Of a stretch of DNA of 64,000 nucleotides, positions 22,443-63,773 are shown one piece after another; positions within the stretch are counted from its first letter, which is position 1; every line of letters starts with the position of its first letter. Under the pieces are notes generated by a model that saw only the letters and a program-made list of their open reading frames with translations, was not told the origin of the DNA and searched no databases. The DNA comes from Bacteroidales bacterium (GTDB lineage: Bacteria > Bacteroidota > Bacteroidia > Bacteroidales > UBA932), in the NCBI GenBank assembly GCA_017471045.1, contig JAFUWZ010000017.1:27146-91145 (forward strand), written 5' to 3'. A program made the translations under genes and the position numbers.

Positions 22443-22495
22443 CGCCGCGATTTTGGATGACAACTCAAAATCAATCATACTATTTCTATCATCTT

Positions 22496-25672: not shown

Positions 25673-25692
25673 TCCGGCAATTCTCCGTTTAT

Positions 25693-25730
25693 AAATCAGG
25701 CACCTCTTGCACGGAGGTGCCTGATTTTTT
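25693..25730 (+). terminator. Intrinsic terminator of receptor 1
   Basis: AAATCAGGCACCTC (25693-25706) pairs perfectly with GAGGTGCCTGATTT (25714-25727) around TTGCACG, and the T-run continues to 25730. It lies 20 nt after the receptor stop. The next gene's promoter is embedded in it. Confidence 0.9.
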
Positions 25731-25737
25731 AAATTTG
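25707..25737 (+). promoter_or_regulatory. Promoter of the phosphodiesterase gene, overlapping the terminator
   Basis: TTG (25707-25709) lies in the terminator loop; after a 20-nt spacer TAAATTTG (25730-25737) begins at the end of the terminator T-run. It is 20 nt upstream of the next ATG. Confidence 0.7.
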
Positions 25738-25757
25738 TCAGTCAAAACAAATTTCTT

Positions 25758-26954: not shown

Positions 26955-26957
26955 CAC

Positions 26958-27001
26958 TGACTTGAACTGAAAAAAGTGTCAACTTTTTTCAGTTCAAGTC
27001 A
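26958..27001 (+). terminator. 20-bp perfect inverted repeat after the phosphodiesterase gene
   Basis: TGACTTGAACTGAAAAAAGT (26958-26977) and its exact complement (26982-27001) flank the loop GTCA, 4 nt after the stop codon. The stem contains an A6/T6 stretch, so it resembles a bidirectional terminator, but the run of T lies inside the stem and not after it. Confidence 0.65.
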
Positions 27002-27137
27002 TCTCGAATATGCTTTCGAAAACCAAGTGCCGCTCTGGATGTTTGGATTTCTGTATTAGCTTTTTTTGTGGTTTTGACTTTATTTCTTAACTTGCATTGT
27101 TATACCCGCAAAAAAACAGCAAAATTAATAAGCCATT

Positions 27138-30380: not shown

Positions 30381-30398
30381 TCAAAGGAGGAAAGCGTT

Positions 30399-32816: not shown

Positions 32817-32842
32817 CCCGAAACTAATAATACGCGAACCAT

Positions 32843-35068: not shown

Positions 35069-35080
35069 TCCAGACGCACC

Positions 35081-36316: not shown

Positions 36317-36331
36317 TAAAGCGGACGGGTT

Positions 36332-37414
36332 ATGATGCGTAAGACAATACTGGTATGGCTGCTGAGTTGCGCGGCCGTCTTCGGCGCCTTTGCGCAGAAG
36401 ATCGGGCCGGGCTACATCATCGGCTTCTACAACCTGGAGAACCTCTTCGACACCTATCATGACGAAGGGAAGAACGACTATCAGTTCCTTCCGGACGGCT
36501 CCAACAACTGGACGGAAGTGAAGTACGAGAAGAAACTCCACAACATGGCCACGGTCATCCGCACGATGGCCGAGGACAACGGCCGCTTCCATACGATCCT
36601 GGGAGTCAGCGAGATCGAAAACCGGCACGTCCTCGAGGACCTGGTGAGCCAGCCTGAGATCGCCCCGGCCAACTTCCAGATCGTCCATTATGACGGTCCG
36701 GACCGTCGCGGCGTCGACGTGGCCCTGCTCTACCGGCCGGATCAGTTCACCGTGCTGGAGAGTCGCTCCATCCCGTTCACCTTCGACAGCGAGATCCCCT
36801 TCGCGTATACGAAAGAAGAGCAGGAGCAGTTCCGTACCCGTGACATCCTGATGGTGCGCGGCATGATCGAAGACGAGATGTACGCGTTCTTCGTCTGCCA
36901 CCTTCCTTCCCGTTTGGGCGGCAAGGGCAACGACCTGCGCAGCCGGGGCGGCGAGATCATCTACCAGACCTCGATGGAGCTGATGCGCCTGTATCCGGGC
37001 ATCAAGATCGCGGCGATGGGTGACATGAACGACAATCCGACGGACGACTCGATGGCCATCTATCTCCACGGCCGCGAGACCCTGGACGAGGTCGGGCCGG
37101 AGGATTTCTTCTCCCCCTTCCTGTCGATGCTCAAGGCCGGTTACGGTTCGCTCGCCTATCGCGGGGAATGGAACATCTACGACCTGATCCTGGTCAACGA
37201 GGCCATGGCCAAGGGCACTTCCGGCAAATACCGTCTCCAGCCACTGGTCAAGCAGCGCAAGAAGGTCTTCTACGGGCGTATCTTCCAGAAAGATTTCATG
37301 ACCCAGCAGGACGGCCCCTACAAGGGGACTCCGTTCCGGACCTTCTCCAACGGCGCGTTCGTGGGAGGCTATTCCGACCACTATCCCACTTATATTCTTA
37401 TCGGTAAAAAATAA
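36332..37414 (+). CDS. Secreted endonuclease/exonuclease/phosphatase (EEP) family protein
   Basis: 360 residues. Signal peptide ends VFGAFA-Q (no lipobox), so it is exported, probably periplasmic. EEP catalytic elements are complete: FYNLENLF (Asn34), GVSEIEN (Glu94/Glu96), VCHLPSR (His190), GDMNDNP (Asp231, Asn233) and YSDHYP (Asp349, His350). Family members act as DNases, AP endonucleases or phosphodiesterases. In this position, between a NUC nuclease and a TonB receptor, a role in trimming nucleic acid fragments is likely but unproven. The TAA is directly followed by the start codon of receptor 3. Confidence 0.88.
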   Translation: MMRKTILVWLLSCAAVFGAFAQKIGPGYIIGFYNLENLFDTYHDEGKNDYQFLPDGSNNWTEVKYEKKLHNMATVIRTMAEDNGRFHTILGVSEIENRHVLEDLVSQPEIAPANFQIVHYDGPDRRGVDVALLYRPDQFTVLESRSIPFTFDSEIPFAYTKEEQEQFRTRDILMVRGMIEDEMYAFFVCHLPSRLGGKGNDLRSRGGEIIYQTSMELMRLYPGIKIAAMGDMNDNPTDDSMAIYLHGRETLDEVGPEDFFSPFLSMLKAGYGSLAYRGEWNIYDLILVNEAMAKGTSGKYRLQPLVKQRKKVFYGRIFQKDFMTQQDGPYKGTPFRTFSNGAFVGGYSDHYPTYILIGKK

Positions 37415-40345: not shown

Positions 40346-40349
40346 GCGT

Positions 40350-41327
40350 ATGAAAAAGACCTTGATCGGGCTCGTTGTAGCCCTGTTTGCCTTGTTCTCT
40401 TGCGAGAAGGCCCCCGAGGATCCCGCTTTCCTGAGCGAGACCCCTCAGGTCAATACGACCATCGCCCAGCTGAAAACGCTCTATACCAAGCCCGGGACGC
40501 CGGTCGTGATCGAGGACGACCTCGTGATCGGCGGCCAGGTGATCTCTTCCGACCTGTCGGGCAACCTGTACCGGAGCTTCTACATCCAGGATGAGACCGG
40601 CGCCATCGAGATCAAGATTGGCAAGTCTTCCTTGTATAACGACTACAAACTCGGCCAGTGGGTCTATGTCAAGTGCAAGGGCCTTGCCCTCGGACAGTAC
40701 GGCGGCATGCTTCAGATCGGTTACCGGACGGACCAGCCCGAGTGGCTGAAAGTCAAGCCCTCCTACGAGACGGCGTACATCGACGTGCAGTACCTGATCG
40801 ACCAGCATATTTACCGGGGGAAGCTCGATACGCCTGTCGCTCCGGAACTCATCGATGAGGCCGGCATCAAGGCCGAAGCCAATTACGGCAAGTTCGTCCG
40901 GATCGAAGGCCTGACCTACGGAGACGAGATCTTCGTGATCCTGTATGACAAGGCCGACAATGCCACCTACCTGAGCGACAAGTCCTACGGTGTCCATACC
41001 TGGGCGATGACCCAGAAAGGCTTCATGGCCTACATGACGCCCAACGGCAAGGTCGAGCCGCAGGAGGCTTTCGACGGGATGGTGACCAAGGAGACCTGGC
41101 AGCCCCTGTATGATGCCGCGGCCGCCTACACGGTGAGCCAGTACTTCAAGATCGGCAAGACCGACCTGCAGGTGCGCACCAGCGGCTATGCCAAGTTTGC
41201 CGATACCCCGATCGACCGCAGGATCCTCGCCGGCGCCAAAGTCAACCTGACCGGCCTCCTGACTTATTACAACGGCAACAACCAGTTCACGCTGATCGAC
41301 CTCGACGGCGTGGAAATCGCAGACTGA
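40350..41327 (+). CDS. DUF5689 (OB-fold) lipoprotein
   Basis: 325 residues, lipobox LFALFSC (Cys18). The DUF5689 pattern is clear: an N-terminal TIAQLKTLY segment, then VVIEDDLVIGGQVISSDLSGNLYRSFYIQDETGAIEI, a typical OB-like unit with GQWVYVKCKGL, and a second unit near the C-terminus (AGAKVNLTGLLTYYNGNNQFTLIDLDGVEI). It probably faces outwards and binds ligand for receptor 3. It is 4 nt after the receptor and its stop is separated by a single base from the peptidase start. Confidence 0.86.
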   Translation: MKKTLIGLVVALFALFSCEKAPEDPAFLSETPQVNTTIAQLKTLYTKPGTPVVIEDDLVIGGQVISSDLSGNLYRSFYIQDETGAIEIKIGKSSLYNDYKLGQWVYVKCKGLALGQYGGMLQIGYRTDQPEWLKVKPSYETAYIDVQYLIDQHIYRGKLDTPVAPELIDEAGIKAEANYGKFVRIEGLTYGDEIFVILYDKADNATYLSDKSYGVHTWAMTQKGFMAYMTPNGKVEPQEAFDGMVTKETWQPLYDAAAAYTVSQYFKIGKTDLQVRTSGYAKFADTPIDRRILAGAKVNLTGLLTYYNGNNQFTLIDLDGVEIAD

Positions 41328-45023: not shown

Positions 45024-45061
45024 GCCGTGAATCCGTATCTGGACAAGCGCCGGATGGTCCA

Positions 45062-45093
45062 TTTGCATTTTTGCCGACATTTTTCTAAGATTG
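45062..45093 (+). promoter_or_regulatory. Candidate promoter of the first SusC/SusD operon
   Basis: TTTG (45062-45065), a 20-nt spacer and TAAGATTG (45086-45093), one mismatch from TAnnTTTG, 17 nt upstream of the preferred SusC ATG. The locus also encodes an ECF sigma factor, so an additional ECF-type promoter may exist that cannot be recognised here. Confidence 0.45.
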
Positions 45094-45110
45094 CAGAAAA
45101 GTGTCATCGG

Positions 45111-48100
45111 ATGCGCAGTCGGCTCTCTGTCCTTATGGTATTGCTTCTCAATTTTCTGGTGTTCGGCCAGGAGTTGGGCGGCAAGTCCCTGCCCTCGGCC
45201 AGGATCCGCTTGCCGGAAAGGACCATGACGGTCGGGCACTTCTTCCGCTCCATCGAGGAGCAGACCCGTTTTTTCGTCGTTTACAGCGAGGCTCAGGTCT
45301 CCACCGACTCGTTGGTCCGCTTTTCCCGTACGGAAGGGACCCTGGTCTTTTTCCTGAATGAATTCTCCCGGCAGACCGGCTGGCGGTATGATTATTCGAA
45401 GCGCTATATCATCGTTTCCAGATATGCACCCGGCCGTCTGATCCGCGGGCAGGTTTTGGACGAAGGAGGCCATCCCGTTTCCGGGGCGGACGTGCTTGAG
45501 TGGCCGGACCGGAAGCATTGGGCCGCTACGGACCCGGATGGTTGGTTTGAAATCGTCGTGGGGAAAAAAGACCGGCTGTCGGTGTCTTGTCTGGGATATA
45601 AAAGCACCGTCGCGGAGATTTCCGACACATTGAAGGTCGTTCTGCGGGAAGATGTGTCCCCGCTCGATGATGCCGTCGTCATCGGTTATGGCCGGCAGCG
45701 GAGGACGGACCTGACCGGGGCGATCAGTTCCGTGAAGATGCCGGAGCTGCGAGACATTCCCGCACACTCCGTTGCAGAAGCTTTGCAGGGCAAGGTCGCC
45801 GGTGTTTATGTGAACAGGGGACGGGGCCCCGGCGCTTCTGCCGACATTTTCATCCGCGGGGCGGGTTCCATCAACGGGTTGAAGCCCCTCTATGTGATCG
45901 ACGGCATGCCGGGCGGCGGTGAATTGGGCTGGAACATCAATGACGTGGAATCCATCGAAGTCATCAAGGATGCTTCCGCCGCCGCCATCTACGGGGCGAA
46001 TGCAGCCGGAGGCGTCATCCTGATCACGACCAAAGGCGGCCATGATGCTGAGCCCCGGGTGTCTTTCTCCGCCAAGACCGGCTTGACCAGGCCCGGGCGG
46101 CCGTATGAGCTCCTTCACACCCAGGATTATATCGCGGCCCGGATGGAAGCCACCGATGCGTATGATCTCCTGTGGGATGACCCTGGCTCGCTTCCCGATA
46201 CGGACTGGGCGCGGGAGTTGAATCTATATGGGACGGGTTGGGATACGGAGTATTCCCTGTCCCTGAGTGCCCGTCAAGGAAGGATGGCCTATTATCTGTC
46301 CGGCTCTTTCGCGGACGAGGAGGGCTTGCAGACCGATTTCTGGCGGAATTTCTATCTGTTCGGCAAATTTGATTACTCCGTGACGCCCAGGCTCAAGGTC
46401 GGCACCTGGATCTCGGCGTGGAAAACAAACTGGAACGACAATGCAATCGGCTGGAGGACCTTGTGGCGGTCCATCCCTTACATGAATGTATACGAGGAGG
46501 ATGGGTCTTTCTCTCCGATCCCGTCGTCGTCTCCCTTCACGGCCTGCCGGAACTATGTGGCCGAGCTCTCCTATGGAGACCATCAGCGGAAAGGGCGGAC
46601 CCGTTCGGAGGCGCGTCTGTCCTTGGAATGGAACATGACGGATGCGTTGAGACTCAGTTTTATGGGGAATGCGTTTTTCTCTTCGGAATACGACAATGTA
46701 TATCAGGAGCAGACCTATACACGCAGGACCAACGTCTCCGACCAACTGACGATGAAGGCTTCGCATGCGGAACGTTACCGCTTCTTTTCGACGCTGACTT
46801 ACGAGAAAGCCTTGGCCCGGGACCATGACCTGTTGCTGATGGCCGGTTATGAGGCCTGGCTCCACATGGACGACAAGGTCTCTGTTTCAGGCCAGAACTC
46901 CATGGTCAGCGACCCGCAGTCCATGTCCATGACCAGCGAGTATTCGCGTACGGGAGATGGGCTGTCTGAGTGGAACGGCCGGGGACTCTCGCAATTTGCC
47001 CGCCTGAACTATTCTTATCGCAGGCGGCTGCTTCTGTCCTTGAATCTCCGCCGGGACGGCTCCACCAAATTCGGCTCCAGTTACCGTTTCGGCTGGTTCC
47101 CGTCTGCTTCTGTCGGGTGGAAAATCCATGAGGAGCCCTTTTTCAGGCGGTATGGATCGGATTGGATCGATGTCCTGAAACCCAGGCTCAGTTACGGCTC
47201 CCTGGGGAATACGGATGCCTTGTCGGATTATATGTGGCAGGCGGCCTATTCCGCCGGCATCGGTTCGTATTCCTTTGACGGGACGGCGTCGGGCCGGGAG
47301 TCGGGCTTTTCCATGGTGAAGCTGATCAACGACGACATCAAATGGGAGGAGATCGTCACGGCAGATGCCGGACTGGATATCGCACTGTTCGGGAAGAGGT
47401 TCTCGGCCAGTATAGACTGGTATGACCGCAGGTCCAAGGACATGCTCTATAACCTGCGGGTGCCTTCCACCTCCGGCTCATCCGGGACCATGCCCGTCAA
47501 TCTGGGCTCGATCCAGAACCGGGGGATCGAAGGCGTTTTTTCATGGTCGGACAGGAAGGCTGATTTCCAGTATGCGATCTCCGTCAATCTCGCCCACAAT
47601 GTCAACCGGGTGCTCAACCTGGGGCAGATCAATGCGAGGATTTCCGACGGGGATCTGTCCACGACCAACGGCAACTCCGTCCTGTCTACCGGATCCGATA
47701 CCCACGTCACGGTCAACGGGCAGCCTATCGGTGCGATATGGGGTTTTCAGACGGCGGGCATCATCTCCAGTACCCGGGAGTTGGAAGATCTCAATGCCTT
47801 GGCCCGGGAAAAGGGCTTCGCTTTTTACCAGACGGCTGACACCGGAGTCGGCGACCTGCGCTATGTCGACAGGAACAAAGACGGCCACATCTCGAAAGAA
47901 GACGCCACGTTCCTGGGATCCCCGTGGCCTGACCTCCAGTATGGAGGCACCTGCTCCGCCATTTGGAAAGGGTGGGATCTGGCGGTTTCCTGGGCCGGCA
48001 TCCAAGGTCGGGACGTCGTGAACTGCATGAAGCCGTTCGAGTATGTTTTCCAGACAGACTATCAGACGACCCGGAAGATCTTCGAAACGTCTTTCATGTC

Positions 48101-48458
48101 CGGCAACGGTTTGACGGACTATCCCCGTGCCTATGCTTCCCAAGGGGACGGCGTGGTCGTGGACCCCAATGGAAACTACAACCTGATGTCCGATTTCCTG
48201 ATGGAAGATGGATCCTACCTGAGGATCAAGGATATCGTGATCGGATATACGCTTCCGGCCCGTTGGTCCCGGAAATGGTACATGGACCGTTGCCGGCTCT
48301 ATTTCGACGGCAGCAACCTTCTCACTTTCACCCGCTTCACCGGCCTTGATCCGGAGTTCCGGGGCTCTGTCACCAAGTATGGCTCGTATTTGGAAGGCAT
48401 TCCCATGATGCGGACCTATACTTTCGGCCTGAATATCGTGTTCGGAGGATGGAAATGA
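45111..48458 (+). CDS. SusC/RagA-family TonB-dependent transporter with N-terminal STN domain
   Basis: 1115 residues from MRSRLSVLMVLLLNFLVFG; an upstream GTG-initiated extension through the promoter is rejected. After the signal peptide come an STN (secretin/TonB) domain (about 28-105), a CarboxypepD_reg domain (about 112-190), the plug (PLYVIDGMPGG; VESIEVIKDASAAAIYG; ANAAGGVILITTKGG) and the barrel ending TFGLNIVFGGWK. STN-bearing SusC proteins usually signal to a FecR anti-sigma, and one is encoded downstream. It would import an oligosaccharide with the SusD partner, whose start overlaps the stop by 4 nt. It is clearly paralogous to the SusC at 51977. Confidence 0.92.
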   Translation: MRSRLSVLMVLLLNFLVFGQELGGKSLPSARIRLPERTMTVGHFFRSIEEQTRFFVVYSEAQVSTDSLVRFSRTEGTLVFFLNEFSRQTGWRYDYSKRYIIVSRYAPGRLIRGQVLDEGGHPVSGADVLEWPDRKHWAATDPDGWFEIVVGKKDRLSVSCLGYKSTVAEISDTLKVVLREDVSPLDDAVVIGYGRQRRTDLTGAISSVKMPELRDIPAHSVAEALQGKVAGVYVNRGRGPGASADIFIRGAGSINGLKPLYVIDGMPGGGELGWNINDVESIEVIKDASAAAIYGANAAGGVILITTKGGHDAEPRVSFSAKTGLTRPGRPYELLHTQDYIAARMEATDAYDLLWDDPGSLPDTDWARELNLYGTGWDTEYSLSLSARQGRMAYYLSGSFADEEGLQTDFWRNFYLFGKFDYSVTPRLKVGTWISAWKTNWNDNAIGWRTLWRSIPYMNVYEEDGSFSPIPSSSPFTACRNYVAELSYGDHQRKGRTRSEARLSLEWNMTDALRLSFMGNAFFSSEYDNVYQEQTYTRRTNVSDQLTMKASHAERYRFFSTLTYEKALARDHDLLLMAGYEAWLHMDDKVSVSGQNSMVSDPQSMSMTSEYSRTGDGLSEWNGRGLSQFARLNYSYRRRLLLSLNLRRDGSTKFGSSYRFGWFPSASVGWKIHEEPFFRRYGSDWIDVLKPRLSYGSLGNTDALSDYMWQAAYSAGIGSYSFDGTASGRESGFSMVKLINDDIKWEEIVTADAGLDIALFGKRFSASIDWYDRRSKDMLYNLRVPSTSGSSGTMPVNLGSIQNRGIEGVFSWSDRKADFQYAISVNLAHNVNRVLNLGQINARISDGDLSTTNGNSVLSTGSDTHVTVNGQPIGAIWGFQTAGIISSTRELEDLNALAREKGFAFYQTADTGVGDLRYVDRNKDGHISKEDATFLGSPWPDLQYGGTCSAIWKGWDLAVSWAGIQGRDVVNCMKPFEYVFQTDYQTTRKIFETSFMSGNGLTDYPRAYASQGDGVVVDPNGNYNLMSDFLMEDGSYLRIKDIVIGYTLPARWSRKWYMDRCRLYFDGSNLLTFTRFTGLDPEFRGSVTKYGSYLEGIPMMRTYTFGLNIVFGGWK

Positions 48459-50302
48459 ACCGGGTTGCTGTCTTCTGTCTGTCGTTGTCGCTGGTCCTGT
48501 CCGTTTCGTGCCGGGAAGCGGACTTCCTCTCGGTATACAATCCGGAGGAGATCTCTGATGCGGATTTCCCGGAGTCTCTCCAGGATGTCCGTTCTTTGTT
48601 GACGGCGGCCTATGGCGCCATGCACAGCTACGAGTTCCTAGGTTCTTACTGGAGCGGATATGCGATGTACAACCTGGATCATACGGTGGATTTCCTGTAT
48701 CGGAATGACCAGAGCTGGATCTCGATCGGCGCCGGGACGTTGGAGATAGAGAACGATAAGATCTCGGCGGAATGGAAGGTGATCAACCGGGGGATCCATT
48801 ACGCGAACATTGCCGTCGAGGGCGCACAGTCGTTCCGGCAGAAAGCGGATCCGGGGGAACGGGACCAGGTGGATCTGTATGAAGGCGAGGCCTTGTTCCT
48901 GCGTGCGTTGCTCTGGTGGCACATGATGTCCCTGTATGCGGAACCGGACCCGGATGGGGTCGGGATCCCGATCCTCAGGCACTCGGCGTCCAGTTTTGCC
49001 TCTGCACAAGTCGGCAGGGAAGCGACCGGCGCCTGCTACGAAGCGATCGTCGGGACGCTGCTTCAGGCCATTCCTTTGCTGGAGGGCCAGCACGTCAAGT
49101 CCCGCGCAGATGTCTGGTCGGCCAAGGGTCTGCTGGCCAAGACGTACCTTTTTATGGAGAAGTATGCCGAGGCCGGGGAAGTGTTGTCCGATATCCTGGC
49201 CCATAGCGGGAAGACCCTGGTCAGTTTTTCCCATCTGAGGAATATGTATAACGGGGATCCCGTTTTTGAGCATCCTTCGGAGTCTTTGTTTGAGATTGAG
49301 AATGCCCTGTTCCCATCCAATCCGAACACCTATGGATCCGGCTGGACCTGCGGATCTTCCTTGTCCCGCTGGTTTACCCATTTCTATATCCGGCAGGACG
49401 GTGTCCGGGAGAATTGTGATTTCAGCAACCTGTACTGCCATGACCGCAATCTGGTCCGTTTCGGCTATGACACGCCGGCACCTTTGAATTTTGTCCGGCG
49501 GAGCGACGATCCCCCGTCTGCTTCCGTCGGATATGTTCCCTTCAACACGACGTGGCAGGGGTATTATCTGGATGCCGCCTATGTGGCCGGCCAGCGTGCC
49601 ATGAAGGAGCGGGCTCTTGCGGGCACCGTCCTGCCCTCGGATCCGGATCCGCGGATGTATCTCAACGTGATGATCCCCTATATTGATTCCTGTCGTGCGG
49701 AGGGGGGGATGGAGTGGGCCCCTGTCGCCCAGTCTGCCAAGGGAGGATGGTATCTTCCCGGATCCGGGAATGATCCGGCGTCTTACTATGCCTTCCCCCT
49801 GCGCAAATACCAGTTCCTGGATGGCAAGCTCGTCAAGGACGGAGGTGATTGTACGGGAGAAAACGTGTACTTCATGAGATTGTCGGAAGTCTATCTGATG
49901 TATGCGGAAGTCCTGGCCCGGTCAGGGGATGAGTCCCTGGCGTTGGAGTATATCAACAAGGTACATCGCCGCGCCTATGGCCGTCATCCGGACCGGCCGT
50001 CGGAGTATGATTACCATTCGATGAGAGACAGGACGAAGACCGCCGATCCGGCGGACCATCTGGCCAACGATCCCCTGAAGTATGAGTATTTCATGGAATT
50101 GTTCGGCGAATTCCGATGGTGGGAGTACATCCGTCATTTCAGGATGGGTCAGGAAGAAGCCTCCTTTTATCAGACGCTGCGGGGCCCGGGGGATGCCGGG
50201 GTCACGGAGATCGTATTCCCGGACCGCCATTATGCCCAGCCCATTTTCAATACCGAATTGGACGCCAACCCTGCGCAGGAGCAGACCCCTGGTTATCGGT
50301 GA
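48455..50302 (+). CDS. SusD/RagB-family glycan-binding lipoprotein (pair 1)
   Basis: 615 residues. ATG 48455 overlaps the SusC stop (ATGA) and is preceded by GGAGGA; ATG 48449 is an alternative. Lipobox LSVSC (Cys19). The N-terminal FLSVYNPEEISDADFPESL and the TPR-like helices (YEGEALFLRALLWWHMMSLYA; WSAKGLLAKTYLFMEKYAEA) are typical. The C-terminal RMGQEEASF and the final NPAQEQTPGYR match RagB/SusD. It caps the SusC channel on the cell surface. Close paralogue of the SusD at 55698. Confidence 0.92.
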   Translation: MNRVAVFCLSLSLVLSVSCREADFLSVYNPEEISDADFPESLQDVRSLLTAAYGAMHSYEFLGSYWSGYAMYNLDHTVDFLYRNDQSWISIGAGTLEIENDKISAEWKVINRGIHYANIAVEGAQSFRQKADPGERDQVDLYEGEALFLRALLWWHMMSLYAEPDPDGVGIPILRHSASSFASAQVGREATGACYEAIVGTLLQAIPLLEGQHVKSRADVWSAKGLLAKTYLFMEKYAEAGEVLSDILAHSGKTLVSFSHLRNMYNGDPVFEHPSESLFEIENALFPSNPNTYGSGWTCGSSLSRWFTHFYIRQDGVRENCDFSNLYCHDRNLVRFGYDTPAPLNFVRRSDDPPSASVGYVPFNTTWQGYYLDAAYVAGQRAMKERALAGTVLPSDPDPRMYLNVMIPYIDSCRAEGGMEWAPVAQSAKGGWYLPGSGNDPASYYAFPLRKYQFLDGKLVKDGGDCTGENVYFMRLSEVYLMYAEVLARSGDESLALEYINKVHRRAYGRHPDRPSEYDYHSMRDRTKTADPADHLANDPLKYEYFMELFGEFRWWEYIRHFRMGQEEASFYQTLRGPGDAGVTEIVFPDRHYAQPIFNTELDANPAQEQTPGYR

Positions 50303-50908: not shown

Positions 50909-50935
50909 TCCGCCATTTCCCGTGGCGGATTTTTT
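50909..50935 (+). terminator. Terminator-like hairpin between sigma and FecR genes
   Basis: TCCGCCA (50909-50915) pairs with TGGCGGA (50923-50929) around a 7-nt loop and is followed by a run of six T. This is a good intrinsic terminator or attenuator placed between two genes normally co-expressed. Confidence 0.7.
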
Positions 50936-50960
50936 GTCTTTGCTCGTTGTAAGGATAAGC

Positions 50961-51935
50961 ATGGATATCCGCGTTGTCAAATATTTCGATCAGTCGCTCC
51001 CGGATCAGGAGTGCCGTGAACTGTTGCAGGAGGCGTTGGAGGATGAGGAGATCCGAAGAGAGATGATCGCGTGCCGTCAGTTGAGTTCTTTGCTGGCGTT
51101 GGACGAATCCAGGATAGACCGGGTCTCCGGCGAAGAGGCTTATAAGCGCTTCATCCGGCATCGCAGGACTTCTTCCGGAAGGGTCCGCTCCGTCCGTTGG
51201 ATCGGTTCCGTGGCTGCTGCGGTCCTCCTTTTCATCGGAGTCCGGGCGCTGTTCCACCCGGCGGTGGGCCTCCATCCTGCCGCAGAGGCGGAGTGGGTAC
51301 AGGCCGAGGCCCCTTCTCCCGGCGGGGTACGGGACCTTACGCTTCCCGACGGGACGCTCGTCTGCCTGAATTCCGGCTCGTCGCTCCGCTATCCCGGACA
51401 ATTCAAGGGGGAAAGGCGGGTTGAGCTGGAGGGCGAAGCGTTTTTCGATGTCAGGCCGGATGCGGCCCATCCCTTTGTCGTATCGACCGGCAAGATGGAT
51501 GTCAAAGTCCTGGGTACCCGGTTCAATGTGTTCAGTTATCCCGGCAGGGACCTTGTCATTTCCTTGTTGGAAGGTGCCGTGTGTGCCTTCCGTCCGGAAT
51601 CCCCGGAGGAGGTATTCCGCTTGAACCCCGGGGAGCAGTTGGAAGAGAGGGAAGGACGCTTTCTTTTACATGGTTTAGAGGAAGATCCCGTCACGTGGAT
51701 GGACGGCTATTTTTCATTTACGGACCGCACGCTCGGTTTCATCCTGTCCCGTCTGGAATGCTATTACAACGTCAGGATCATCGTCGCGGATCCGCATCTG
51801 CTCGAGTACCGGTACACCGGCAAGTTCAGCCGGTCGGATGATATCATCTCGATCCTGGCGGTCTTGAAAAAGATCTATCCTTTCTCGGTTTGTCCGACAG
51901 ATGATCCGGATGTGATCCGGCTGGAGTCTATCTGA
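50961..51935 (+). CDS. FecR-family anti-sigma factor
   Basis: 324 residues from MDIRVVKYFDQSL, preceded by AAGGATAAG; a GTG start 13 codons upstream overlaps the terminator hairpin and is less likely. Cytoplasmic N-terminal ~85 residues, one membrane segment (WIGSVAAAVLLFIGVRALF, about 90-108). The periplasmic FecR domain contains LPDGTLVCLNSGSSLRYP, GEAFFDV and VKVLGTRFNVFSY. A C-terminal DUF4974 domain (FTDRTLGFILSRLECYYNV) resembles an STN fold. It should bind the ECF factor and relay signal from the STN-bearing SusC encoded upstream. The TGA shares one base with the first possible ATG of the next gene. Confidence 0.93.
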   Translation: MDIRVVKYFDQSLPDQECRELLQEALEDEEIRREMIACRQLSSLLALDESRIDRVSGEEAYKRFIRHRRTSSGRVRSVRWIGSVAAAVLLFIGVRALFHPAVGLHPAAEAEWVQAEAPSPGGVRDLTLPDGTLVCLNSGSSLRYPGQFKGERRVELEGEAFFDVRPDAAHPFVVSTGKMDVKVLGTRFNVFSYPGRDLVISLLEGAVCAFRPESPEEVFRLNPGEQLEEREGRFLLHGLEEDPVTWMDGYFSFTDRTLGFILSRLECYYNVRIIVADPHLLEYRYTGKFSRSDDIISILAVLKKIYPFSVCPTDDPDVIRLESI

Positions 51936-51976: not shown

Positions 51977-54900
51977 ATGAAGAAACGTTTCATCCTTTCG
52001 GTAGTGGCAATCGCTTGTCTGGCGATTCCTTATGCCACAGTGTCCGGAGCGTCTTCTCCCGCAGCTGAACTGCAGCAGCAGGGACGTAAGACGGTTTCCG
52101 GAGTCGTGACCGATGCCGGGGGCCAGCCTGTCATCGGTGCGGTCGTGATGGTGCCGGGGACGACCCTCGGAGCCGTGACGGATGCACAAGGCCGTTATAC
52201 GCTTTCGGTCCCTGCAGGGACACCGGTCCTGGAGGTCTCCAATGTGGGATTCAAGACCCAACAGATCCCGGTCGGATCTCCGGCCGCTTACAACGTGACG
52301 CTCGCGGAGGATGCCCAGATGCTTGAGGAAACGGTGTTTGTCGGTTATGGCGTCCAGAAGAAATCCAATCTGACAGGGGCCATCACGTCTGTCAAGTCGG
52401 ATCAGATCGTCGATCTGCCCGTGACGTCCCTGACCGATGCCATCCAGGGCAAGGTGTCCGGTGTTTCCGTGACCCAGGCCAAAGGTGTCGGCCAGGCCGC
52501 ATCCATCCAGATCCGTGGCGCCGGTTCGACGGCAGGCATGGCGCCGTTGTACATCATCGACGGTATTCCCGGAGGAAGCGAAGCCGGTTTGAACCTGAAT
52601 GATGTCGAATCCATCGAAGTGATCAAGGATGCTTCCGCCGCCGCGATCTACGGAGCCAATGCCGCGGGCGGCGTGATTCTGATCACCACGAAGAAAGGCC
52701 TGATGGGGCGCCCGACCGTCAGCTTCTCGTCCAAGAATACCTTCTCGACGGTGGGGAACAAATACTACCACCTTCTGGAGACGCCGGACTTCATCGCAGC
52801 CCGGCGGGAAGCCTTCGGCGAGAATTATGTGGAGTATAATGATGCGGCCGTAACCGGCGTCAATACCAATTGGGGCGACGTCCTGGGCCTGACCGGTCAT
52901 GGATACAACCAGCAGTATACGCTTGCCGTCAGCGGGGCGGACGAGCGCTTCAATTACTACGTTTCGGGGCAGTACCAGCGTCAGGATGGCTTGCAGACCG
53001 ACTGGTGGCAGTACATCTCCGCATTGGCGAAAATGGAGTACAAGGTCGCCCGCAACGCCACGTTGGGCGCCCGTGTCAACATGGCGCGTACCACAAAGAA
53101 CTCCTATACGGTAGGCTGGCGGACCATGATGCGCACGGTCCCTTTCCTGGATCCGGTCGCAGAAGACGGATCTTTCAATCCGTTCCCGGCCTGGTATTCC
53201 AATGCCGGCGAAAACTATCTGGCGGATCTGAGCCGCAATGGCGGGCATCGTGACGAAGCGGGTGTCTCCACCAACGGGCGGCTCTATTTTGACTGGGAGA
53301 TCCTCCCTGGCCTGAAATACAATATCACGGGAAGCGCCTCTTTCGGAGGGTCTTACTCGGATGTATACACTCCGGAAAACAATACCAAGCCCACAGCTTC
53401 TTACGACAGTTACAACAAGAACCAGAGCTATTCGGAGAACTACCGGGTCTTCACTACCCTGACGTACGACAAGGTGATCGCTGACATCCATGAACTGAGC
53501 CTGATGGCCGGCTACGAAGCCGGATGGTGGATGAGCAACGGCATTGACATCACGGCCAAGGCCGGTTCCGGCAACGGGTTCGTGGTCTCGGATCCGAAGT
53601 CCTACTCCGTCGGATCCAGCCTGACGTACAGCAATGTCAAAGCGACGCTCAACAAGAACGGGCGCCAGCTTTCCCAGTTCGCCCGTCTCAATTACGCCCT
53701 GCTGGGCCGCTACCTGCTTACGGCAAATGTCCGTCGGGACGGATCCACCAAGTTCGGCCGCAACAACCGTTTCGGTATTTTCCCTTCCGTTTCTGCGGGA
53801 TGGAAGATCTCCGAAGAGCCTTGGTTCAAGGATCTGGGCGCGGACTGGGTCAGCCTGGTCAAGCCCCGTATCAGCTGGGGTGTTCTGGGCAATACCGACG
53901 CCCTGGCCAACTACAGTTATCTGAAAGAATACACGGGCGGCGTGGCCGGCCCGGCCTATTCCTTCGACGGATCGTCCATCAACACGGGATATGTGTCGGC
54001 AAAACTGATCAATAACGACATCAAGTGGGAGGAAGTCCGTACGTTTGATGTCGGTATTGACATCAACCTGTTCAAGGACAGGCTCGAGTTCGCCTTTGAC
54101 TGGTACAACCGGAACTCCAAGGATATGCTGTACAACCTGTCCGCTCCGACTTCATCGGGTATCAAGAGCTTCTTCTATGGCAACCAGTGGTGGTATGGCT
54201 GGAACACCGGTTCGATGCCGCTCAATATCGGAAGCGTATCCAACAAGGGTATCGAGTTCTCCATCTCCTGGCGCGACCGGGTCGGTGACTTCCATTATGG
54301 CGTCAGCTTCAACGGTGCTCACAATGTCAACAAAGTCATCGATATCGGAGAGGAAACGGCCAGCATCCTGACCGGCACGCTGAATCTGCCTACGGGCGGT
54401 GTCATCACCTCCCCGAGCAAGACGGTCAACGATTCTCCCATGGGTATGCTGTGGGGCCTCAGGACGGACGGTATCATCCAGACGCAGGCGGAAATCGACG
54501 CGCTCAATGCCCTCGCCAAGGAGAAAGGATTTGATTATTACTACAATGCCAATACGGGTGTCGGCGACTTGAAGTACGTGGACGTGGATGAAGACGGCCA
54601 CATCACCAAGGATGATGCCGACTTCATCGGCAATCCCTGGCCGAAGTTCCAGTATGGCGGGAATGTCTATTTCGAGTGGAAGGGAATCGATCTCAGCGCC
54701 AATTTCGTAGGCGTTCACGGCCGGGATGTGATGAATGGCATGATCCCTTGGACCTTCCGGTTCCAGTCCGACTACAATACGACCTACGATATCTTCAAGA
54801 CGTCCTATTTCAAGGGCAACGGCCTGACGGAGTATCCCCGGATCTATGCCAAGGTGGGGGACAATACCTATTCTGATCCCAACATGAACTATGGCAACAC

Positions 54901-55684
54901 CTCCGATTTCCTGGTCGAAGACGGGTCGTATTTCAAGGTCAAGAATATCACCTTGGGTTATTCCCTGCCGACCCGGATCATCGAGAAGATCAATCTGTCC
55001 CGGGCCCGGATTTATTTCTCCGGACACAACCTGGTCACACTGACCCGGTTCACGGGTCTCGATCCCGAATTTGTCGGTTCTCCGACGAACTCCGGCTATT
55101 ATGAGGAGAGCACTCCGCTGACGAAGTATCTGACGGTGGGGCTGGACATCACTTTCAGCGGACGTCATCGCGGCGTGGAACCGCGTCCTTCGGCGGCGGC
55201 TCCCAATGCCCGGATGGCCGAAGCCCTAGCTGCTGCCAATGCGCTGGCCGACCGGCTCCGTGCGGAAAACGACGGCCTCAAGCGTTCGCTCAAAGAGGCG
55301 GATGACGAATTGGCGGCCTGCCGTGCGGCGGCTCCCAAGAATATGGCTCAGAAGCGTGCGGAAGCCCTGCTGGTGGAGGATATCTATTTCGAACTGGACC
55401 AGTATGTCGTCCGGCCTTCCGAAATGCCGAAAGTCGATGCGCTGATCCGGTGCATGAAGGATCATCCGGAAGCAAATGTCAGCATCTTCGGCTATGCCGA
55501 TCAGGCTACGGGGACGGAGTCCCGTAATCTGGTGCTTACGAAAGAACGTGCCCTGGTGGTGGCGAATGCGCTCAAGGCTGCCGGGATCGACGAGAGCCGT
55601 ATCTCTACGGAGTTCTATGGCACGGAGAAGGATCCGTCCTTCTCTCCGGAGAATAACCGTCTCGCTGTCTGTATCGTGAAATAA
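51977..55684 (+). CDS. SusC/RagA-family transporter fused to a C-terminal OmpA-like domain
   Basis: 1235 residues from MKKRFILSVVAIACLA; ATG 51935, overlapping the FecR stop, is an alternative. Signal peptide, CarboxypepD_reg domain (VSGVVTDAGGQPVIGAVVM), plug (PLYIIDGIPGG; DASAAAIYGANAAGGV) and a full SusC barrel whose usual last strand is YLTVGLDITF (to residue ~1060). The frame then continues ~175 residues. A Pro/Ala linker and a predicted coiled coil (ADRLRAENDGLKRSLKEADD) come first. An OmpA-family domain (about 1130-1235) follows with IYFELDQ, IFGYADQATGT (Asp1175) and LTKERALVV (Arg1191), the two residues that bind diaminopimelate in OmpA proteins. No STN domain. The plug/barrel is paralogous to the upstream SusC. 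Partner SusD starts 13 nt downstream. Confidence 0.93.
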   Translation: MKKRFILSVVAIACLAIPYATVSGASSPAAELQQQGRKTVSGVVTDAGGQPVIGAVVMVPGTTLGAVTDAQGRYTLSVPAGTPVLEVSNVGFKTQQIPVGSPAAYNVTLAEDAQMLEETVFVGYGVQKKSNLTGAITSVKSDQIVDLPVTSLTDAIQGKVSGVSVTQAKGVGQAASIQIRGAGSTAGMAPLYIIDGIPGGSEAGLNLNDVESIEVIKDASAAAIYGANAAGGVILITTKKGLMGRPTVSFSSKNTFSTVGNKYYHLLETPDFIAARREAFGENYVEYNDAAVTGVNTNWGDVLGLTGHGYNQQYTLAVSGADERFNYYVSGQYQRQDGLQTDWWQYISALAKMEYKVARNATLGARVNMARTTKNSYTVGWRTMMRTVPFLDPVAEDGSFNPFPAWYSNAGENYLADLSRNGGHRDEAGVSTNGRLYFDWEILPGLKYNITGSASFGGSYSDVYTPENNTKPTASYDSYNKNQSYSENYRVFTTLTYDKVIADIHELSLMAGYEAGWWMSNGIDITAKAGSGNGFVVSDPKSYSVGSSLTYSNVKATLNKNGRQLSQFARLNYALLGRYLLTANVRRDGSTKFGRNNRFGIFPSVSAGWKISEEPWFKDLGADWVSLVKPRISWGVLGNTDALANYSYLKEYTGGVAGPAYSFDGSSINTGYVSAKLINNDIKWEEVRTFDVGIDINLFKDRLEFAFDWYNRNSKDMLYNLSAPTSSGIKSFFYGNQWWYGWNTGSMPLNIGSVSNKGIEFSISWRDRVGDFHYGVSFNGAHNVNKVIDIGEETASILTGTLNLPTGGVITSPSKTVNDSPMGMLWGLRTDGIIQTQAEIDALNALAKEKGFDYYYNANTGVGDLKYVDVDEDGHITKDDADFIGNPWPKFQYGGNVYFEWKGIDLSANFVGVHGRDVMNGMIPWTFRFQSDYNTTYDIFKTSYFKGNGLTEYPRIYAKVGDNTYSDPNMNYGNTSDFLVEDGSYFKVKNITLGYSLPTRIIEKINLSRARIYFSGHNLVTLTRFTGLDPEFVGSPTNSGYYEESTPLTKYLTVGLDITFSGRHRGVEPRPSAAAPNARMAEALAAANALADRLRAENDGLKRSLKEADDELAACRAAAPKNMAQKRAEALLVEDIYFELDQYVVRPSEMPKVDALIRCMKDHPEANVSIFGYADQATGTESRNLVLTKERALVVANALKAAGIDESRISTEFYGTEKDPSFSPENNRLAVCIVK

Positions 55685-55697
55685 TCAATCCCGTACG

Positions 55698-57560
55698 ATG
55701 ATGAAAAAGATCCTTTCCATTTTACAATATGTGGCCGTCTTCTGTGCGCTCGGCGCCATGTCGGCGGCTTGTAACGAGGACAAGTTCCTGGAGGTCTCCA
55801 ACCCGGAGGCGATCGGCGAAGGTAACTTCCCGTCCAATATATCTCAAGTAGAGAGATTCCTGGCAACCGCTTATGGCTCCTCGCATTGTTATATGTTCCT
55901 GGGCAACCAGTGGCCCGGGTATCTTCCTTATGCCCTTGACCATACGCTTGATTTCCAACACCGGGAGGATGACTGGAACCAGATGGCTTCCTGCCGGGTC
56001 ACGTCCAGTACGGCCAAGCTCGGAACGGGCTGGGATGGCCTTGCCGTAGTGATCCATAATACCAATACGGCGCTCGAAGCTATCCTCAATTACCGCGAAA
56101 GCGGGTATATGAAGGACGAAGAGGCCTCCCTGGTCGATGTGTACGAAGGTGAGGTGCGCTTCCTGCGTTGCATGTATTGGTGGTGGTTCCAGGAGATGTT
56201 CGGCCAGCCGGACGCCGATGGCGTCGGCATCCCGCTCTTGACCCATTCGGTGGATTCATACGCCGCGTCGCAGGTGGGCCGTGCCAAGTCGGGTGACGTG
56301 TACAACACCATGATAACGGAGCTGAACACGGCCATCGGTCTGCTTGCCCGCCAGAGCGGAAGCAAGACGCATGCGGACCAGTGGGCGGCCAAGGGCCTGC
56401 TCGCCAAAGTCTACTGGGCCTTGGAGGATTACACCGATTGTGCCAGCGTCTGCCTGGATATCATCAAGAACAGCGGCAAATCCCTGGTCAGTTTCAAGCA
56501 TTATTACAACATGTACAACGGGGACGCTTCCTACGAGCATCCGAGCGAGTCGCTGTTCGAGATCGAGAATACGCTGGGAACGTCCGGACAGGGTTATGGA
56601 TACTGGAATCCGGGGACTTCCATGTCGATGTTCTATTCCCAGAAGGTCATCAATACGGCCGGCGCCCGTAAATCGGTCTCCTATTGCAACCAATACGCGC
56701 ACGACCGCAACATCACGCGCTTCGGGTATACGGAGCCGGCTCCGCTCCACTTCCTGGCAACCAGCAAGACCGAGCCGGATTCCGAGATGAAGACCTTGTC
56801 CGGCGATACCTGGTATTATCTGCCTCAATCCTATCTGGATGCAGCCAAGGCCATGCAGCAGCGCTCCGTGGACGGGAAGGCTGTTTATGCGACGGATCCT
56901 GATCCCAGGTTCTTTGTGGGTATCTTCTTCCCATATATCAATTACTCCAAGGATACGTCCAACGGGAAGGAGGACTGGCCCATTGGCCAGAACTATGGCT
57001 CCGGCGACTGGTGGACGACCGGGAGCGGCAACAGCATCGACGAATACGCTTTCTCCACGAGGAAGTATCAGTTCATCGAGGGTGCCTTGCAGGCTCACGG
57101 GATGCTTTCCTCCCCTGAAAACACCTATTTCATGCGTCTGCCCGAGATCTATCTCCTGTATGCCCAGTGCATCAAGGATTCGGATCCGGCGACCGCGCTG
57201 GAATATGTCAACAAGGTGCATAGGCGGGCGTATGGACAGCCGGTCGATGCCAAGTGGACCAACGACTATGCCTCGCTTTCCGCACGGACCAAAACCGCGG
57301 ATCCGACCGACCATCTGGCCAACGATCCTTTGCTCTATGAAGTATGGGCGGAACTGTTTGCCGAGATGAGATGGTGGGACTATGTCCGCCATTATAAACT
57401 CGGGCCGGAAGAGTCTGCCTTCTACAAGACCGTCCGCGGACCCAGTACGGACGGGTCCACGGAGATCGTCTGGAACGACCGGATCTATACGATGCCGATT
57501 CCGGATTCGGAGTTTACCAAGAATTCCAATCCGGAGATGGTCCAGACTCCTGGTTATTGA
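55698..57560 (+). CDS. SusD/RagB-family glycan-binding lipoprotein (pair 2)
   Basis: 620 residues, lipobox MSAAC (Cys25 counting from the first of two adjacent ATG codons). Features: FLEVSNPEAIGEGNFPSN, the TPR helices (VYEGEVRFLRCMYWWWFQ; QWAAKGLLAKVYWALEDY) and the C-terminal KLGPEESAFYKTV and NPEMVQTPGY, all paralogous to the SusD of pair 1. It is the surface lid of the OmpA-fused SusC. A strong terminator follows, so the pair-2 operon can end here. Confidence 0.92.
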   Translation: MMKKILSILQYVAVFCALGAMSAACNEDKFLEVSNPEAIGEGNFPSNISQVERFLATAYGSSHCYMFLGNQWPGYLPYALDHTLDFQHREDDWNQMASCRVTSSTAKLGTGWDGLAVVIHNTNTALEAILNYRESGYMKDEEASLVDVYEGEVRFLRCMYWWWFQEMFGQPDADGVGIPLLTHSVDSYAASQVGRAKSGDVYNTMITELNTAIGLLARQSGSKTHADQWAAKGLLAKVYWALEDYTDCASVCLDIIKNSGKSLVSFKHYYNMYNGDASYEHPSESLFEIENTLGTSGQGYGYWNPGTSMSMFYSQKVINTAGARKSVSYCNQYAHDRNITRFGYTEPAPLHFLATSKTEPDSEMKTLSGDTWYYLPQSYLDAAKAMQQRSVDGKAVYATDPDPRFFVGIFFPYINYSKDTSNGKEDWPIGQNYGSGDWWTTGSGNSIDEYAFSTRKYQFIEGALQAHGMLSSPENTYFMRLPEIYLLYAQCIKDSDPATALEYVNKVHRRAYGQPVDAKWTNDYASLSARTKTADPTDHLANDPLLYEVWAELFAEMRWWDYVRHYKLGPEESAFYKTVRGPSTDGSTEIVWNDRIYTMPIPDSEFTKNSNPEMVQTPGY

Positions 57561-61745: not shown

Positions 61746-63773
61746 ATGAGACAAAGAATGGGATGGATGGTCTTGCTGGCCTTGGCGGTATCTTGTGGGA
61801 AACCATCCGTAGAAAAGTTGCCGGCCGACGGGCTGCAGGCCCCTTATGGCGTTTATTCCGAAGGATGGATCGGACAGATCACGCCTCAAGGCTGGATCAA
61901 AGAATTCCTGGAGCGTCAGCGGACGGGCCTTACCGGACATCCGGAAGCGTTGTGCTATCCCTACAATACCTGTCTCTGGGACGGGGAAATCACGCGGGAA
62001 ACCGAAGAGCATGGTGACGACTGGTGGCGTTATGAGCAGACGGCCTATTATACGGACGGTCTGCTCCGCCTGGGCTATCTGTTGGGAGATGAGGCGTTGG
62101 TGCAGAAGGGAAAAGCAGGGATCCATTACACGCTGAACCATCTGACGGAAGATGGCAGCTATGGCTTCCGGGAGCGGAGCGGCGAACCGGAGGGCGTCAA
62201 CGTCGCCCGGGACATTGCGGCCGGGAAGTGGCTCCTGATCTGGCCTCAGGCTGTTTTCTTCCGGGCGATCCAGGCCTATTATGAGAAGACGGGCGATCCG
62301 GCCATACCGGCGGCGCTGGAGCGCCATTTCCTGAATTTCAAGGGATCCAATTATGGGAGCACGCGCAATATCGTCAATGTGGAGGGCCTGTTGTGGACCT
62401 ACGGTATGACGGGGCAGCAGCGGCTTCTGGAACTGGCCGAAGAGGGCTGGAAGGACGGTCATTTCGAGCTGAACGAAAAGACTTGTCTCAGCGACAAGCC
62501 GTTTTTCCTCCATGGGGTCAGTGTCTGCGAGGAGTTGAAGGTGCCGATGATCCTGTATGCGTGGACGGGTAATCCCCATTACAGGGATCTGGCTTTGCGC
62601 GTGGAACAGAAGCTGGAGGATGAGGCTATGCTGCCGGACGGAATCCCTTCCAGCGCCGAGCATCTGGCCGGAAGGGTGGCCAACCACAGCCACGAGACGT
62701 GCAACATCACCGACTTCTCCTGGTCCATGGGCTACTATCTGATGACGACGGGACAGGCGAAGTGGGGAGACCGGATCGAGCGTGCCGTCTTCAACGCGGG
62801 TCCCGGGGCTGTCGGGAAGGATTTCAAGACTCTGCAGTATTTTTCTTCCGTCAACCAGTTCATCTCGACCGGTACCTCCAACAACAACGAGACCATGAAG
62901 GGGAAAACCTGGATGCAGTACCGGCCGGTCCATGAGACGGAGTGCTGTGCCGGCAATGTCCACCGGTTCATGCCCAACTATGTCTCCCGCATGTGGCTCC
63001 GCTCTTCGGACGGAGGTGCCGTGGCCGCCCTGCTGGGCCCGTCGGACCTGACGCTTCCCCTGTCGGACGGAGTCTCCTGCACCATTGAGGAGCAGACCTG
63101 CTATCCTTTCGAAGATGAGATCTCTTTCCGCTTCTCTTTCCGCCGGGCAGACGGAAAGACGGTCCGGAAGCAGTATCAGTTCCCGTTCCAGTTCCGGATC
63201 CCGGAATGGGCCGAAGAGGTCCAGGTGGAATTCAACGGACATCCTTTGACTTTCGAGCGCACGGAAGGCGGCTTTGCGCGGGTGGTGCGCCCGTTCCGGA
63301 GCGGCGACGTCATCCGCGTCTCGTTCGGCTGCCGGATCGAGACTCCGGAGTTTGCCGGCCAGGGGCGCTATGTCGAGCGGGGGCCCCTGCTGTATGCTTA
63401 TTCAATCCCGACCCGGACGACACAGGACACCGTCACGTATGCCAATATCCATGGGAGGGTCTCGGCCCATCCGGATTTCAAGTGCTGGAGCAAAGTGCCT
63501 GTCGGGCCATGGAACTATGCCTTGAAGGATGCGGCAGCGGATGGCTGGAAGGTGGAGCGGGTGGACATCGGCGAGGCCTTTCCCTGGGAGGAGCCCTGCC
63601 TGAAGATCAGCGTCCCCGTAGTCAAAGTCAAGGACTGGCAGCTGGATGAAGGGAACTATACTCCGGAGAACCCGGCGGCCCCCTTTGACTGCGATCCGGA
63701 TGTGACCCGGATCGACCTGGTCCCCTACGGCACAACCTACCTGCGCCTGACCGTCTTCCCGGTCGCGGATTAG
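61746..63773 (+). CDS. GH127-type beta-L-arabinofuranosidase (DUF1680) lipoprotein
   Basis: 675 residues, lipobox LAVSC (Cys17). An (alpha/alpha)6 barrel is suggested by long helical blocks such as YYTDGLLRLGYLLGDEALVQ. The zinc/catalytic set described for GH127 (one Glu and three Cys) is present as HETC (Glu317, Cys319) and ETECC (Cys400, Cys401); one of the paired Cys is the nucleophile in characterised enzymes. A C-terminal beta domain follows (FQFRIPEWAEEVQVEFNG). The related GH146 shares these residues, so the family number is not certain. It would remove L-arabinofuranose from plant glycans. Downstream lies the second long hairpin element. Confidence 0.88.
   Translation: MRQRMGWMVLLALAVSCGKPSVEKLPADGLQAPYGVYSEGWIGQITPQGWIKEFLERQRTGLTGHPEALCYPYNTCLWDGEITRETEEHGDDWWRYEQTAYYTDGLLRLGYLLGDEALVQKGKAGIHYTLNHLTEDGSYGFRERSGEPEGVNVARDIAAGKWLLIWPQAVFFRAIQAYYEKTGDPAIPAALERHFLNFKGSNYGSTRNIVNVEGLLWTYGMTGQQRLLELAEEGWKDGHFELNEKTCLSDKPFFLHGVSVCEELKVPMILYAWTGNPHYRDLALRVEQKLEDEAMLPDGIPSSAEHLAGRVANHSHETCNITDFSWSMGYYLMTTGQAKWGDRIERAVFNAGPGAVGKDFKTLQYFSSVNQFISTGTSNNNETMKGKTWMQYRPVHETECCAGNVHRFMPNYVSRMWLRSSDGGAVAALLGPSDLTLPLSDGVSCTIEEQTCYPFEDEISFRFSFRRADGKTVRKQYQFPFQFRIPEWAEEVQVEFNGHPLTFERTEGGFARVVRPFRSGDVIRVSFGCRIETPEFAGQGRYVERGPLLYAYSIPTRTTQDTVTYANIHGRVSAHPDFKCWSKVPVGPWNYALKDAAADGWKVERVDIGEAFPWEEPCLKISVPVVKVKDWQLDEGNYTPENPAAPFDCDPDVTRIDLVPYGTTYLRLTVFPVAD

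Follow-up and report, generated by a model that had tools for sequence, protein, structure and literature searches.

How does a SusC importer come to carry an OmpA-type domain behind its barrel, and what might such a tail do for the cell? The question is raised by a 64,000-nucleotide stretch of a Bacteroidales genome (GenBank assembly GCA_017471045.1, contig JAFUWZ010000017.1, positions 27,146 to 91,145 of the forward strand), referred to here as the window, in which the open frame at 51977-55684 on the plus strand encodes a protein of 1235 amino acids. A preliminary description, made from the DNA letters alone, had read this protein as a SusC transporter with a peptidoglycan-binding OmpA domain fused to its end. 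Our results confirm that the fusion is real, and they amend its picture as a single case: the protein belongs to a family in which the tail sits on unrelated SusC barrels and appears to have been exchanged between them. We put at about 0.7 the probability that an OmpA-type domain, joined to the last barrel strand by a spacer, anchors the importer to peptidoglycan without a covalent bond. It also seems probable, with somewhat less assurance, that spacer and OmpA domain together form a wall-anchoring cassette which recombination carries from one SusC gene to another, unrelated one; this would make tethering swappable in Candidatus Cryptobacteroides, the genus of the window. Handles beginning with L, C, G or g are our own, and papers are cited by their PMC identifiers, each from an excerpt.

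The frame, whose longest form begins at 51935, is open throughout. As described beforehand, it passes through the last barrel strand, TVGLDITF, which ends at residue 1060, into a linker and an OmpA domain. Residues 38-1060 cover all of the SusC/RagA model TIGR04056 (profile positions 1-981 of 981) at 760 bits, with a cut-off of 368, and the TonB-dependent barrel recognised by Pfam, also over its cut-off, occupies residues 398-1019. A profile constructed from the 27 unfused SusC of the same genome is matched through its end, and the closest solved SusC relative, 8aa4, aligns across residues 38-1058. The linker, described beforehand as a linker or coiled coil of about 50 residues, measures 64 residues; a helix is likely within it.

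The match of the tail to the OmpA family (PF00691) scores 50 bits, over the gathering cut-off of 27.2, and takes in profile positions 1-84 of 98. Since the standalone OmpA of this genome covers positions 1-87, the fused domain is about as complete as the standalone one. In OmpA of E. coli, a corresponding Asp and Arg contact diaminopimelate. Asp1175 and Arg1191, found where they had been placed before, are presumably the two residues of OmpA-type domains that make this contact. Their columns hold D and R in each of 134 aligned rows, 100 of them fused and 34 standalone OmpA domains, some duplicates included. Among solved structures, the domain comes closest to 9uu2, a major outer membrane protein, in an alignment that spans the GYAD and RA motifs. 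The protein is not a PorE, given that model NF052230 reaches 36.2 bits of the 600 needed and matches the OmpA part alone; the Pal lipoprotein model TIGR02802 likewise stays below its cut-off (47.6 and 125.35 bits).

The window's genome holds 13 OmpA-domain matches, nine of them in fused frames of 1174-1410 amino acids, where they exceed the cut-off, and 36 SusC over cut-off, nine with the tail and 27 without. Contig C62 (L188; 5382 bases) matches, along its whole length, a stretch of C49 (L187) at 99.98%, with one mismatch, and counts one fused susC twice, so that 8 of 35 is the safer count. In plug, barrel, N-terminal CarbopepD domain and downstream SusD gene, the fused proteins resemble SusC/RagA (TIGR04056). 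They differ in what follows: the 27 unfused proteins end within 0-4 residues of the profile that was built from them, whereas all 85 fused proteins of the tree set reach its last or last-but-one position and then continue for 151-184 residues. SusD is recognised by Pfam downstream of all eight distinct fused genes of this genome, and 81 of the 85 fused genes are followed by a long frame (455-694 amino acids where complete) that starts between -23 and +29 nucleotides from the end of the stop codon; the other four loci end too early to show one.

When named genomes were scanned with the alignment of the tails, 324 pattern matches and 232 relatives came up, and 80 loci were kept for analysis. At 78 of these, in 44 assemblies counted by accession prefix, SusC and the OmpA tail share one frame (77 by a same-frame SusC BLAST match, L063 by the family model; a few are cut by the contig), so that the junction is continuous in related genomes as well. 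The two exceptions are L113, a standalone OmpA of Candidatus Alistipes faecigallinarum, and L125, which is cut by its contig and carries no SusC assignment. All eight divergent fused proteins that were checked exceed the SusC cut-off. An assembly or binning artefact at the junction might be suspected, as the genome in question is a draft and most of the named loci examined come from metagenome-assembled genomes (MAGs), but with both parts in one frame at so many loci it can be practically dismissed. Seven of the 80 loci were excluded from the trees: L113 as standalone, L095, L097, L125, L126 and L128 for frames below 900 amino acids, and L134, which runs off its contig. The frame at L126:4279-6330 (683 amino acids) begins downstream of a stop codon that lies within the barrel region and finishes in the tail; it is perhaps a broken or mis-assembled susC. 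A near search of a plasmid collection gave no match.

The tails form two classes. Class A, which includes the tails of the window, C35, C47 and others, has a spacer of 63-73 residues in 11 proteins, with 39% Ala; class B has a spacer of 40-66 residues in 74 proteins, rich in Val, Glu and Lys. Six divergent tails (L201, L203, L204, L205, L206 and L208) end in NRRVTVxIVN, where x is S or R, and not in NRVAVCIVK; the OmpA tail of L207 (1280-amino-acid frame) is more distant still.

How rare the architecture is, the preliminary description could not say. Among the matches listed, which are the scope of the scans reported here, fused frames occur in the window's genus and in one other genus of the family only. 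In Candidatus Cryptobacteroides, fused frames of at least 1000 amino acids were found in at least 41 of 400 genomes, a lower bound given that no more than eight candidates were scored in each genome. In 299 genomes of the family, the matches listed place fused frames in this genus and in g24 (G565, G471, G585, and G642 in a short frame). Those from the wider scans, of 393 genomes in the order and 395 in the phylum, contain no fused SusC outside the window's genome; the only other frame of more than 1000 amino acids among the phylum matches listed, on G1307:C36, is a VWA-OmpA protein and not a SusC fusion. Rare or divergent fusions could have been missed by the scans. The listed relatives of the window's barrel in other families are 30-37% identical, in frames of 993-1169 amino acids; four of them that were read (L236-L239) stop at the last strand, as does L235 from the same genus (46%, 1050-amino-acid frame).

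The barrels that carry the tail are scattered among those that do not. In a tree of 22 fused and 27 unfused barrels, the distribution of the tail requires 12 label changes, nine of them forced by starred branches, and constraining the fused barrels to one clade is rejected (log-likelihood difference 1903, approximately unbiased test p = 3.7e-34). The 22 were picked by us from 85 to cover the clades of a FastTree, and the unfused barrels come from the window's genome only. The FastTree itself, with 85 fused and 27 unfused barrels, also requires 12 changes, eight of them forced. One clade would be expected had one SusC gained a tail and its descendants then diversified, and the fused barrels do not form one. 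The tails behave differently: in a careful tree, a single branch parts 33 fused tails from 31 standalone OmpA domains, with support of 100/97 and in 100% of 200 bootstraps. Of the 134 rows, we picked 64 for this tree (33 of 100 fused, 31 of 34 standalone), leaving aside duplicates and many close relatives as well as L207 and L200, which are the most divergent tails, and the remote standalone domains L001 and L002. One tail domain seems, as far as sequences can tell, to have been copied from importer to importer, across unrelated SusC, in one animal-gut lineage.

Comparison of barrels and tails in the same proteins points in this direction. Where barrels are 20-25% identical, tails are 64% identical at the median and up to 89%; where barrels are 70-80% identical, tails go down to 49%. 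The barrel of L055 is 58-73% identical to those of five class-B carriers, while its tail is of class A and 47-49% identical to theirs. Tail presence also differs between close barrels, as in L133 (fused) and L190 (unfused), 80.6% identical over 912 amino acids, and in L106 and L189, 65.2% over 1124 residues. Three gene pairs were read as DNA in 60-base windows, and in all three the DNA is far more alike in the tail than in the barrel or downstream. For L068 and L080, two genes of one MAG, barrel windows show 21-31 matches of 39-60 and tail windows 52-58 of 60, from 180 bases past the last strand to the stop; beyond it, similarity falls to 37 of 58 and then to 21-27 of 48-60. For L067 and L077, from different MAGs, barrel windows show 23-31 matches of 51-60; the tail, from 60 bases past the strand, reaches 49-60 of 60, and the DNA after the stop drops to 35 of 51 and then to 23-27 of 44-60. 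For C3 and C17 of the window's genome, whose barrels are closer (24-47 of 45-60), the tail gives 54-59 of 60 from 60 bases past the strand; its final window, reaching across the stop, gives 49 of 58, and downstream DNA 25-36 of 52-60. The boundaries of the cassette would thus lie some 60-180 bases past the last strand and close to the stop codon. At fourfold degenerate sites, identity in the three pairs is 0.84 in the tail (50-57 sites) against 0.46-0.51 in the barrel. In the window's genome, five pairs of class-B tails on barrels 27-28% identical are 0.82-0.85 identical, whereas tail pairs with C49 give 0.61-0.65 and class A against class B 0.42-0.45. Standalone OmpA domains of the genus serve as a yardstick: identity is 0.49-0.77 for 20 of their 21 pairs, and the remaining pair reaches 0.96.

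Several observations weigh against the explanation favoured here, by an exchanged tail that anchors the importer. A faster tree of all 134 rows needs two changes and does not cleanly part fused from standalone domains, and it places class A beside standalone OmpA with support of 94. A separate fusion from standalone OmpA each time is not favoured, given that the 33 tails form one clade, a point against which the faster tree speaks. The fourfold values are noisy, with 24-57 sites for each pair: values of 0.63-0.75 occur in several far pairs whose tail proteins are only 0.39-0.72 identical; weight was therefore put on pairs in which fourfold and protein identity agree. High conservation of the tail may be partly due to selection, gain and loss of the tail are not distinguishable, and 359 of the 400 genus genomes show no fused frame of at least 1000 amino acids among the matches listed, so that the tail is dispensable. 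Nor was a general homogenisation of tails within a genome found. Of 2865 pairs with barrels less than 35% identical, 71 join two genes of the same genome; tails are 0.614 identical within and 0.607 between genomes (difference 0.008, permutation p 0.355), and homogenisation as a rule is rejected. Fourfold identity shows an excess within genomes of 0.037 in the tail (p 0.017) and 0.029 in the barrel (p 0.0055); as the barrel excess nearly equals that of the tail, we ascribe it to shared codon use. Tails of the same class are 0.714 identical within a genome (45 pairs) and 0.667 between genomes, a difference given without a significance test. A single ancient fusion, lost many times since, with a tail that changes slowly and is never exchanged between genes, would agree with the one clade of 33 tails and with the ability of a conserved domain to hold about 60% identity for long. 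It is nevertheless very unlikely in view of the DNA mosaics with their fourfold contrast, the class-A tail within a clade of class-B barrels, the class-B tails that exceed the standalone yardstick on distant barrels, and the lack of fused frames in other families among the matches listed. Passing of an anchor cassette between SusC genes is, on the sequences at hand, apparent in single cases and implied by the two trees, and is not a constant process.

In TonB-dependent barrels, the N- and C-termini both lie in the periplasm. As both ends of the barrel face this compartment, the tail can reach the wall. It would sit in the periplasm and bind diaminopimelate there, and this would fasten SusCD to the wall. 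That importer and peptidoglycan are tied together is most likely, being the most economical reading of a real fusion, a SusC-SusD pair and invariant D and R residues. OmpA domains are considered to anchor other outer-membrane machines to the wall; PorE has been reported to bind peptidoglycan in vitro (PMC12204202, in excerpt). Since importers that differ in sequence, and presumably in substrate, share one kind of tail, its role would lie at the level of the envelope, where it would keep SusCD in position and link the outer membrane to the wall, and not in the choice of substrate. For the cell, the benefit may be that SusC is held firmly against TonB, that its position is fixed, or that membrane and wall are stapled together in general. 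Against a need for such an anchor, SusC of Bacteroides thetaiotaomicron, which has no tail, remains largely in the outer membrane, according to the excerpt of PMC6222051. Retention on the cell does not require a tail, and is less likely to be its sole reason.

What the tie would be for can be read in several ways. The tail might mainly staple the outer membrane to the wall, with the SusC barrel as the inducible membrane foot of an OmpA-like stabiliser, a tentative possibility that fits an envelope-wide role of one tail family on unrelated importers. An excerpt of PMC12204202 adds that no pal genes were detected in Bacteroidetes and that PorE has been proposed as a tether. However, this genome has a barrel-type OmpA of its own (404 amino acids, OMP_b-brl and OmpA), and the fused genes adjoin susD, so that the supply of staples would vary with diet. 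More doubtful is an effect of force or position, in which being tied to the wall would steady SusC against the pull exerted by TonB, or keep it close to ExbBD, and thereby aid import; the preliminary description had likewise suggested a place near TonB or a fixed position of the uptake complex. A stretch that we take to be TonB-box-like, EETVFVGYG, follows the CarbopepD domain. ExbD is stated to bind peptidoglycan transiently (PMC10771500, in excerpt), which makes the positional reading possible and does not show it, but 27 of the 36 SusC frames of this genome manage without a tail and the sequence says nothing directly on TonB. The mosaic gene pairs, the presence or absence of the tail between close barrels and its patchiness in the genus among the matches listed would also suit a passenger that spreads by recombination through homology of last strand and tail, with little benefit to the cell. 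This is unlikely, since drift would erode the D and R residues that are found in all 100 fused rows.

Compared with known systems, the anchored importer shares with OmpA and OprF an outer-membrane barrel followed by a periplasmic peptidoglycan-binding PF00691 domain; it differs in that their barrel is small and structural and not a TonB-dependent importer, and in that the 33 fused tails stand apart from the 31 standalone domains in the careful tree. In the SusC shufflons of Bacteroides, an invertase drives recombination between SusC genes. The likeness lies in recombination between such genes, and the difference in that the shufflon inverts DNA at one locus, while the tails described here are common to dispersed loci. 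RmpM of Neisseria and Bordetella is said, in the excerpt of PMC8610307, to tie outer-membrane porins to peptidoglycan by an OmpA_C-like domain; it is a separate periplasmic protein that associates with porins, unlike the tail of the window protein, which is part of the importer. PorE (PG1058) of type IX secretion is likewise part of an outer-membrane machine of Bacteroidota and has a C-terminal OmpA_C-like domain (PMC5053529, in excerpt), but it combines TPR, propeller and CRD domains and has no SusC barrel. A survey of 34,893 TonB-dependent transporters, as excerpted, classed them by their N-terminal domains (PMC6434023). Among the titles listed from the open-licence PMC literature, none names a SusC with an OmpA domain. 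SusC and OmpA are both known families; their fusion, its lineage-bound occurrence among the matches listed and its cassette behaviour appear to be new.

Table 1. Coordinates, in the window, of the fused gene, its parts and its neighbours.
Feature	Position	Strand	Basis
SusC-OmpA fusion, 1235 amino acids	51977..55684	+	Open reading frame, Pfam, NCBIfam
CarbopepD_reg_2, residues 40-120	52094..52336	+	Pfam, 65.8 bits
Plug domain, residues 129-233	52361..52675	+	Pfam, 72.1 bits
Complete SusC/RagA region to last barrel strand, residues 38-1060	52088..55156	+	TIGR04056, unfused-SusC profile
Linker, residues 1061-1124, 64 amino acids, Ala-rich, class A	55157..55348	+	Tail alignment
OmpA-like domain, residues 1125-1235 (111 residues; Pfam match 1137-1219), putative peptidoglycan-binding	55349..55681	+	Pfam
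Codon of Asp1175, putative diaminopimelate contact	55499..55501	+	D in 134/134 aligned rows
Codon of Arg1191, putative diaminopimelate contact	55547..55549	+	R in 134/134 aligned rows
Extracytoplasmic function (ECF) sigma factor, longest frame 262 amino acids	50116..50904	+	Pfam Sigma70_r2, Sigma70_r4_2 over cut-off
FecR-type anti-sigma factor, directly upstream of fused susC	50922..51935	+	FecR 61.8, FecR_C 54.8 bits
susD partner, lipoprotein	55698..57560	+	SusD_RagB 62.4, SusD-like_3 52.3 bits
GH127-type protein	61746-63773		Only NCBIfam match aceric acid hydrolase, 65.9 of 950 bits
Paralogous SusC without OmpA tail	45027..48458	+	46.8% identical over 1032 amino acids
susD of unfused paralogue	48449..50302	+	Pfam

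Around the fused gene, susD starts 13 bases past its stop and is followed by a rhamnosidase of glycoside hydrolase family 106 (GH106), a GDSL-type match below its cut-off and a GH127-type enzyme. These three together suggest, from sequence families, a pectin locus, perhaps for rhamnogalacturonan. The paralogous SusC upstream, reported before to lack the domain, indeed stops four residues beyond its last strand, ending in VFGGWK. This end resembles the FGGR that opens the linker in its fused relative L060, and the unfused paralogue may represent a loss of the tail. Elsewhere in the window, at 22457-41327, two PF25183 barrels precede BACON-domain proteins, a DNA/RNA non-specific endonuclease, an endonuclease/exonuclease/phosphatase family protein and a DUF5689 protein; this locus may serve to scavenge nucleic acids.

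About a quarter of the SusC of this genome (8 of 35) carry a putative wall anchor. A genome that has the fusion makes it testable whether fixing importers to peptidoglycan alters uptake, the use of TonB, sorting between cell and vesicle, or the strength of the envelope. In our judgement, exchange of a C-terminal cassette between transporters would be an unusual form of modular evolution in barrel proteins.

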